DNA of 39,984 nucleotides from a virus: the IMG/VR virus record IMGVR_UViG_3300005939_000003, positions 1 to 39,984 of that record, one strand, 5' to 3'. Below the pieces are notes generated by a model. That model was not told the origin of the DNA and did not search any database. It saw only the letters and a program-made list of their open reading frames with translations. The position numbers and the translations under genes are program-made. This document shows positions 32,996 through 35,202 of this stretch, piece after piece (the stretch's first letter is position 1; every line of letters starts with the position of its first letter).

Positions 32996-33223
32996 ATGAA
33001 AACTAATAAAAACCGATGGAAAAGTAAAACAGTATGGGCAGGAGTTGTAGCAGGATTGGTTAGTATAATGGGTTTTGTTGCAACAGTAACAGGAAATCCT
33101 GATCTATCTATTTCAGCAGAATTCCAAGCACAGATTATGCAAGCAATTATGAGTATGGTAACAACTGCATCAGCAATAATTGTTATTATAGGAAGATTTA
33201 AGGCAAGCCACAAAATTAAATAA
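32996..33223 (+). CDS. Holin
   Basis: 75 residues, no UGA. Structure: basic N-terminus (K-T-N-K-N-R-W-K-S-K-T), membrane segment 1 (about 12-32, V-W-A-G-V-V-A-G-L-V-S-I-M-G-F-V-A-T-V), a short loop (G-N-P-D-L-S-I-S-A-E-F), membrane segment 2 (about 46-68, I-M-Q-A-I-M-S-M-V-T-T-A-S-A-I-I-V-I-I-G), and a basic end (R-F-K-A-S-H-K-I-K). The W-x-S-K-T-V-W opening and the I-I-G-R-F-K-A-S-H close match common small phage holins, which permeabilise the membrane at lysis. It sits right before the peptidase at 33250, as holin and lysin pairs do. Confidence 0.8.
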   Translation: MKTNKNRWKSKTVWAGVVAGLVSIMGFVATVTGNPDLSISAEFQAQIMQAIMSMVTTASAIIVIIGRFKASHKIK

Positions 33224-33249: not shown

Positions 33250-34053
33250 ATGTTAGAAAACCTAGAACTGTATTTAGATGCAGTAGATCAAGCAGATTCA
33301 AGAGATTATTCATATGAGGATCTATATATGAAAGAATATTGAATGTGAAAATCACAAAAGCCTATTCGAGATAGAAAGGTAATGAAGATACGAGATCAAT
33401 TTGATCAAACAAGTACATATAAAGCATGTACAGAATATTCATTATGTAGTGCATATAATGCAAACAACGTAGCAGAATATCTAGAAAAAGATCTAGAATT
33501 CAAACAGCTAAATCCAATGTATAGATGGCACGTTTATCAAAATACTAGATGACGACCAAATACAGGATCTACACTCCAAAAGATGATGAAATTCTTTATT
33601 AAAAACAATTGGATTGAAGGATATATGAGAGCGGATACTATGGAATGATGTAAGAATGCTATAGATAACTGATTCATAATATATACCTGATCATCTAAAT
33701 TTGATTGGAGAAAATCATGAGCTTCATGAGTAGCAGAGCTATGAAATTGAGGATGACATGCATTTATAATTGATTGATATAATAACAGATGATTTACATG
33801 TCCTAATTCTTTCTGAGAAGATCGATGAGATGGATGATATTTCACTGTACCATATGAATACTTTGATAAAATGTTCTCTAAAAATGTTATAATAGATAAA
33901 GATGATACATGAATAATTAGTAGATTAAGTTTTGATAGAGAGTTCCAAAAAGCTATCGAAGCTGGAATCACTAATTGAGAAAGACCAAATGAGCCTGCTA
34001 CTAGAAAAGAGACAGCAGTGATGATTTATAGATCTCTTGCAATTAAAGATTAG
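33250..34053 (+). CDS. Papain-like cysteine peptidase with SLH-like C-terminus (likely lysin)
   Basis: 267 residues. The catalytic set can be read as Q53 (oxyanion), C60 in Y-K-A-C-T-E-Y-S-L, H170 in G-G-G-H-A-F-I-I-D-G-Y and N186 in C-P-N-S-F-G-E-D, followed by D-G-G-Y-F-T-V-P: the order and spacing of the C1 papain family. Residues 228-263 (F-D-R-E-F-Q-K-A-I-E-A-G-I-T-N-G ... P-A-T-R-K-E-T-A-V-M-I-Y-R-S-L) match one S-layer-homology repeat. It directly follows the holin and precedes the late terminator, so it is probably the lysis enzyme, cutting protein rather than peptidoglycan. Starts after the AAAACCACACGAA-type leader. A structural, tail-bound protease is the alternative. Confidence 0.8.
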
Positions 34054-34160: not shown

Positions 34161-34231
34161 CTTGCAATTAAATCCTATTAATATATCAAATAGGTGCGGA
34201 AACTTCGATTTGACAATAGTCATGATTGAAG

Positions 34232-34266
34232 ACCTATCTTCCTAAGGGAAGGTAGGTTTTTCTTTA
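34232..34266 (+). terminator. Strong second intrinsic terminator
   Basis: ACCTATCTTCC (34232-34242) pairs with GGAAGGTAGGT (34247-34257), an 11-bp stem with one T-G wobble and a TAAG loop, followed by TTTTCTTTA. A textbook intrinsic terminator. Two terminators in tandem isolate the early region from late read-through. Confidence 0.88.
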
Positions 34267-34367: not shown

Positions 34368-34706
34368 ATGAACAAAGAACTGTGTATAGCTATAGTACAA
34401 AACATTATAGCAGAAGTAAAATTAGCATATCCATTTATGAAAATAAACCGCACAAAAGTTATGGAATATGTAGGATATGATAAAACATATCTATATGCAT
34501 ACCAAGAAGAAAGACTATCTGTGCATGTATACTCCAAATTAGTAACTGTACTAAAGGAGGTAGATATAGATGAGATGGTTATTGAATGGATGGCAGAAAG
34601 TAAATTAGACTGCTCTTTGGGGGAGAATAAAATACCTGTATCCACAGAGGATACTTTAGAATCTAAATTAGATGATGTTACATGACCCGAAAAATCTGAA
34701 CACTAA
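34368..34706 (+). CDS. Putative small early regulator
   Basis: 112 residues, first gene after the control region. It is predicted all-helical, with N-R-T-K-V-M-E-Y-V-G-Y-D-K-T-Y-L-Y-A-Y-Q-E-E-R-L-S-V-H-V-Y (about 26-54) arranged like a helix-turn-helix, followed by a helix V-T-V-L-K-E-V-D-I-D-E-M. The acidic tail ends with one UGA glycine. Position behind a palindromic promoter suits an autoregulator. The start follows ATTATAAATTGT, close to the leaders at 35448 and 37240. The HTH reading is by eye and uncertain. Confidence 0.55.
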
Positions 34707-35202
34707 GATTATTTTAGGATTAGTATTTATTTTGATCATATTAGTGATCGCTCGATGGAATTTAGTGTATTGAGAATCACAGATGATAGTAACTACTACA
34801 ACGAATGTACAAACAGTTATTTTAGAAAAACCAGTCCAAAGAGAACTGGTAAAAGAGAAGAAATTATACAAAACATGGCGACCAAAAGATGATCCAAGAC
34901 AAGAATATATCAATGAAACGTATAAATTATGATGAATGAACAAAGTTGTATTAAATGAATGTGAATGGTATGATCGAGATCCAAATAAAGTATGAGATGG
35001 ATGACATGCATATTGACTATGTCAGATGAATGATAGATTCCATGATATACCTGATCAATACTATACAGACCGAAGATTCCAAATTAAGTATTGCTTTGAA
35101 AAAAGAAATTGAGGATCTCTATTTTATTGACCTGATCGTGCTGACTGAGAGAATTGAGAGAAATGTATGAGTTATGCACCTAGAAGATTTTATTTAGAAT
35201 AA
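34675..35202 (+). CDS. Membrane-anchored lytic transglycosylase-like protein
   Basis: 175 residues. One membrane anchor near the N-terminus (about 11-30, I-I-L-G-L-V-F-I-L-I-I-L-V-I-A-R-W). Then a lysozyme-like domain: N-E-T-Y-K-L-G-G-M ... V-L-N-E-C-E-W with candidate catalytic E95, H-A-Y-G-L-C-Q-M-N (111-119), and Q-I-K-Y-C-F-E-K-R ... L-F-Y-G-P-D-R. This order fits the SLT lysozyme/transglycosylase fold, which cleaves peptidoglycan glycan strands. C96 and C116 could form a disulfide, suiting the cell exterior. It overlaps the regulator gene by 32 bases. A second ATG three bases upstream is in frame. Early placement, away from the holin, argues against it being the sole lysin. Confidence 0.7.

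Follow-up and report, generated by a model that had tools for sequence, protein, structure and literature searches.

A papain-type peptidase with an SLH-like tail in the probable lysis cassette of a phage using UGA as a glycine codon

The locus considered here raises the question of how a phage leaves its host when the gene following its holin encodes a papain-like peptidase. The window, i.e., the whole stretch of 39,984 nucleotides of the IMG/VR record IMGVR_UViG_3300005939_000003, had been given a preliminary description, which proposed that this peptidase, fused to an SLH-like repeat, serves as the lysin instead of a muramidase or amidase, and that a phage of an S-layered CPR cell may release its progeny by proteolysis of the surface layer. 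Our analysis leads us to regard the protein encoded at 33250-34053 as probably the holin-released lysis enzyme of a phage reading UGA as glycine, probably working with a lysozyme-like protein of the same genome. The features on which the argument is built are collected in Table 1.

Table 1. Features of the lysis region of the window and slippery heptamers in related phages (L numbers denote loci of other contigs)
Feature	Position	Strand	Characteristics
83-aa protein, one predicted TM segment	32450..32701	+	Small-gene run before holin; TM prediction
Holin, 75 aa, two predicted TM segments	32996..33223	+	PHROG holin, E = 8.8e-5; PF04531 Phage_holin_1, E = 3.7e-4
Peptidase with C-terminal SLH-like repeat	33250..34053	+	Xylellain-type C1A (papain-like), 267 aa, code 25, no TM segments
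Q50 codon, predicted oxyanion-hole glutamine	33397..33399	+	Invariant in 68 aligned sequences
C60 codon, predicted catalytic cysteine	33427..33429	+	Invariant; N-terminus of long helix 60-79 in model
H170 codon, predicted catalytic histidine	33757..33759	+	Invariant; opens strand 170-174 in model
N186 codon, predicted catalytic asparagine, motif NSFGEDRGDGGYF	33805..33807	+	Invariant
SLH-like repeat, residues 225-263, GITNG and TRKE motifs	33922..34038	+	PHROG_18208, E = 7.3e-4; PF00395, E = 0.097
Intrinsic-terminator-like hairpin, end of late (tail-holin-peptidase) transcription unit	34228..34261	+	15-pair stem, then T run
Lysozyme-like (goose-type/SLT-like) protein, 176 aa, TM helix 7-33	34672..35202	+	Ten code-25 homologues; invariant E96, E98
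GGGTTTA slippery heptamer	L127:1509, L128:4411, L129:6156, L130:11835	+	In-frame in overlap
GGGTTTA slippery heptamer	L137 12256, L138 4719 (reverse-complement positions)	-	In-frame in overlap

The peptidase gene contains 18 in-frame TGA codons, and its frame is closed unless TGA specifies a residue; under the latter reading, the total length of the plus-strand open frames of at least 150 codons in the window rises from 347 to 10602 codons. In the alignment with relatives, TGA falls on eight glycine columns of the family (141, 147, 160, 169, 176, 189, 193, 196) and on just one tryptophan column, which indicates that it stands for glycine (code 25) and not for tryptophan; over the main ORFs of the window, 574 of the 873 glycine codons are TGA. 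On these counts, UGA is read as glycine in this phage, and its most likely host, judged from the code alone, is therefore a member of the Absconditabacteria or Gracilibacteria. A UGA suppressor tRNA was looked for in the window with ARAGORN and none was found; a tRNA-Met (CAT) gene is located within the phage at 1206-1277. The S-layered CPR host envisaged in the preliminary description fits with the Absconditicoccaceae, which use code 25 and possess 8-10 SLH-domain proteins and a full peptidoglycan pathway (PMC13059738), so that both candidate substrates of an envelope-directed peptidase exist there. The Strigamonas phage RSA-ATP1 (Absconditicoccaceae epibiont), compared by description, is also a 39-kb tailed phage with UGA as glycine and a host possessing SLH-domain proteins and peptidoglycan; the main text of the paper mentions no lysis gene (PMC13059738).

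As to the catalytic domain, C60, H170 and N186, already noted to stand in papain order, are invariant in a 68-sequence alignment of the window peptidase with 67 diverse phage papain-like peptidases, and so is the oxyanion-hole Q50, which had gone unmentioned. The relatives were gathered by scanning with a pattern built on the His-Asn motif and its surroundings, which yielded at least 120 stretches, of which 67 were aligned; stricter patterns (TGA at two glycines, or strict spacing) matched just the near-identical contig of the window, and a close-relative scan with the protein itself found one near-identical viral contig and nothing in genomes. Searches with the single sequence were weak: Pfam C1 models remained under the cut-off, NCBIfam gave nothing useful, a PHROG_16701 peptidase was matched with E = 3.4e-6 and xylellain (PDB 3ois) with E = 7.5e-4. 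The profile of the phage relatives matched xylellain with E = 1.6e-83, and cathepsins and papains at about 1e-25. The AF2 model of the protein is of modest quality (mean pLDDT 67, core blocks 80-90, the tail of low confidence); its top PDB match in Foldseek is again xylellain 3ois (E = 8.9e-7), and its best viral structure matches are C1 peptidases of phages and giant viruses. Active-site placement, judged by the secondary structure of the model together with residue invariance, agrees with the papain assignment: C60 begins a 20-residue helix, H170 opens a strand and N186 comes right after a strand. Taken at the level of sequence and model, the domain belongs to the xylellain-type C1A (papain) peptidases and has intact catalytic residues; it is expected to be active as an enzyme.

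Xylellain-type peptidases have already been described in tailed phages and bacteria (PMC10380794). With xylellain and the other short C1A peptidases the window protein shares the catalytic Q/C/H/N, the N-terminal D..DxRDY motif and the best fold match; it is distinguished by a four-residue insertion between Q50 and C60, by the lack of a stretch that the relatives possess after approximately residue 119, by NSF in place of NSW, and by the addition of the C-terminal repeat and the position in a lysis cassette. Neither Pfam, PHROGs nor NCBIfam revealed a muramidase, amidase, M15, CHAP or NlpC/P60 match; the catalytic domain, being of the C1A papain type, is thus not one of the known peptidoglycan-hydrolase domains taken as a mark of endolysins.

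The tail was previously described as one S-layer-homology repeat, which stands as far as its motifs and its distribution are concerned and is weak in terms of Pfam alone, PF00395 scoring 13.1 bits against a gathering cut-off of 20.8; we therefore call it SLH-like and not SLH. PHROG_18208 matches it better than PF00395 does, and both the GIxxG and the TRxE motifs are found in the single repeat (GITNG...PATRKE). A tblastn search of phage records with the tail recovered two proteins only, annotated as lysozyme and endolysin, and a Moorella phage endolysin matching the tail has an SLH score of its own of E = 9e-16. The tail DNA pattern was found in six IMG/VR contigs, namely the twin of the window, a second code-25 phage (G012) and four with standard-code enzymes. 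Apart from the papain fusion, the tail is borne by six proteins, all of them wall hydrolases of phages, which Pfam assigns to four catalytic types (two Amidase_2, two Peptidase_M15, one Glucosaminidase and one Amidase_3, the last with a strong SLH match); no further phage papain-like peptidase among those compared has it. The Brevibacillus prophage endolysin LysBT1 likewise possesses one C-terminal SLH domain with GIIxG/TRAE-type motifs, by whose TRAE arginine the enzyme binds to the cell surface, and is the one endolysin for which such binding is known to have been shown; in contrast to the window protein, it is an N-acetylmuramoyl-L-alanine amidase acting in a Gram-positive host with the standard code (PMC12285257). 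The required arginine is conserved in the window tail as TRKE. The tail would accordingly be expected to bind a wall polymer, and the repeat as such suggests this function rather than S-layer cleavage.

That the peptidase gene directly follows a holin gene proved correct, the holin having, besides the PHROG match, a PF04531 score of 21.4 bits, the cut-off being 22. The cassette comes after tail genes and has the order one-TM protein, 89-aa protein, holin, peptidase. The holin-peptidase synteny is kept in G012 (contig IMGVR_UViG_3300033463_000377, code 25), whose peptidase-SLH fusion (L150:2772-3557; 261 aa) is 45% identical to that of the window over 241 residues including the tail and has all catalytic residues; a two-TM holin (L150:4477-4788; PHROG_1299, E = 5e-4) is encoded upstream on the same strand, with small genes between, and an 85-aa one-TM protein (L150:4810-5067) occupies the place of the 83-aa protein of the window, the two being compared by position only. 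These two are the only independent phages found to carry the papain-SLH fusion. The location of the papain-type peptidase with its SLH-like repeat in the lysin slot after the holin is thereby supported, and a role in lysis gains support from the conservation of fusion and holin in G012 as well as from the occurrence of the tail otherwise on six phage wall hydrolases.

Where the preliminary description failed is in the absence of a muramidase. Two genes downstream of the peptidase, the window encodes a protein that combines a TM helix with the motif NECEWYDRDPNKVGDGGHAYGLCQMN, which led us to reject the peptidase as a muramidase replacement in this phage. The window copy was recognised by neither Pfam, PHROGs nor NCBIfam, and tblastn of phage records gave no match to it; a TGA-rich pattern of the NECEWYDRDPNKVGDGGHAYGLCQMN motif brought up ten homologues in code-25 phage contigs. 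E96, E98, G108-D109, G111, G115-L116 and Q118 are invariant in the window protein and the nine aligned homologues, so that the predicted catalytic glutamate and a GDGG...GL.Q motif (residues GD.G...GLCQ) are present. The family profile matched the goose-type lysozymes 4g9s and 3mgw weakly (E = 0.006), single members matched lysozyme-like Pfam families with E of 0.03-0.09, and the top Foldseek matches of the model, in which residues 7-33 form a helix, were g-type lysozymes at a non-significant E of 0.6. Given the weakness of this link, the product is likely, rather than proven, to be lysozyme-like.

Since a second wall-lytic candidate is encoded in the same genome, the peptidase may be accessory: the lysozyme-like protein would be the real endolysin, and the papain-SLH protein would remove surface proteins while lysis proceeds or once it is over, or would act on a non-wall target. 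We regard this as a serious alternative, to which we give somewhat less than even credence. It is favoured by the occurrence of the lysozyme-like gene in ten code-25 contigs, eight of which show no papain-like peptidase (these contigs may be incomplete), and by the N-terminal TM helix, a feature typical of SAR-type or membrane-anchored endolysins. However, in other phages the lysozyme-like gene lies among replication and methylase genes with no recognised holin beside it, in the window the terminator-like hairpin parts it from the holin operon, its enzymatic family is weakly supported, and G012, although it has the papain-SLH protein, lacks the lysozyme-like family. In the two remaining contigs of the ten (G008 and G010), the papain-like peptidase bears no tail and does not adjoin the lysozyme-like gene.

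We thus prefer a holin-released lysis enzyme, which may be pictured as follows from the papain family, the catalytic residues, the tail, the adjoining holin, the recurrence in another phage and the presence of a further wall-enzyme candidate, all of them read from sequence. Late in infection the holin would open the membrane; the peptidase, having no TM segment of its own, would pass through it; the SLH-like tail would dock the enzyme on a wall polymer; and the docked enzyme would cut peptide bonds of the envelope, either in S-layer or SLH-anchored proteins or in peptidoglycan peptides, probably together with the membrane-anchored lysozyme-like protein. As the presumed host makes peptidoglycan, cutting of its peptides is as possible as S-layer cleavage. 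In the former case, which is a variant of the holin-released enzyme rather than its opposite, the peptidase would be an ordinary endolysin acting on peptidoglycan stems or cross-links and not on the S-layer, the SLH-like repeat being its wall-binding module. The six other bearers of the tail, including two M15 peptidases, act on peptidoglycan by family, the Absconditicoccaceae make this polymer (PMC13059738), and the papain-like fold class also includes the CHAP and NlpC/P60 lysins (PMC10318531). The latter resemble the window peptidase as cysteine hydrolases in phage lysis cassettes, yet represent different papain-like families, neither of which matched it. The domain is of the C1A/xylellain type, and C1A papains, including the known members of this type, normally cut proteins and not peptidoglycan; the literature searched contained no example of a C1A peptidase that attacks peptidoglycan. 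We consider a peptidoglycan substrate conceivable, with about one chance in three in our estimation. The most specific scheme, namely two-enzyme lysis of S-layered Absconditabacteria or Gracilibacteria by their code-25 phages, in which the SLH-docked C1A papain cuts the S-layer and the membrane-anchored lysozyme is the other half, is offered tentatively and must be called rather unlikely as a whole.

It is improbable that the protein is a protease of the virion or of morphogenesis, or a cargo peptidase that happens to follow the holin. Peptidases of the xylellain type are indeed common in phages away from lysis cassettes (PMC10380794), and the code-25 phage G010 has a tail-less one (L143:958-1977) approximately 23 kb from its lysozyme-like gene, flanked by a metallophosphatase-like gene on one side and a large gene on the other. 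Yet two phages whose proteins are 45% identical share both the endolysin-type tail fusion and the neighbouring holin, and the tail is absent from every other phage papain-like peptidase compared. In standard-code phages, the neighbours of xylellain-type peptidases are often glycosyltransferase, methyltransferase and pirin genes, and no recurrent holin was found among the 25 commonest neighbour families, a tally in which single holins could be missed. The family alone, therefore, does not imply lysis, and the tallies give no support to regarding xylellain-type phage peptidases as lysis genes in general. Such peptidases are frequent in environmental tailed phages (at least 120 stretches, L008-L126).

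The combination of a C1A papain and an SLH-like repeat in a holin cassette appears to be new, although the peptidase family and SLH-bearing endolysins are each known; the literature searched yielded neither this combination nor a lysis enzyme from any code-25 phage of Patescibacteria. The papain-SLH protein beside the holin points to an unusual route of bursting the host, though a lysozyme-like gene is also present. If the proposed role is true, endolysins would gain a new catalytic type, a papain-type lysin bearing an SLH-like tail; such a lysin would point to the surface-protein layer as important for the cell integrity of these episymbionts, and it could yield an enzyme to open hard-to-culture Patescibacteria.

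One more protein of G012 (L158:3386-4162; 258 aa), with a TM helix and a coil, has a possible lysozyme/glucosaminidase-like end (YAESHIG). We did not accept it as a lysozyme, the resemblance ('MYAESHIG...NNWGG') having been noted by eye only and no library match having been obtained.

The lysozyme-like ORF of six code-25 phages lacks a start codon at or close to its 5' end (two of the six contain later internal TTG/ATG codons) and overlaps, in the -1 frame, the 3' end of a small TM-protein gene. Each overlap contains GGGTTTA, which in the frame of the upstream gene reads G GGT TTA and has the X XXY YYZ phasing; across 73 kb of these loci the heptamer occurs seven times, six of them at the overlap sites. 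A -1 frameshift at the heptamer thus probably joins the lysozyme to its membrane anchor, the predicted product being a TM-coil-lysozyme fusion of 230-292 aa. With an anchored lysozyme and a likely frameshift in relatives, the code-25 phages gain testable lysis genes. The window differs in that the anchor and the lysozyme-like part are encoded in one ORF.
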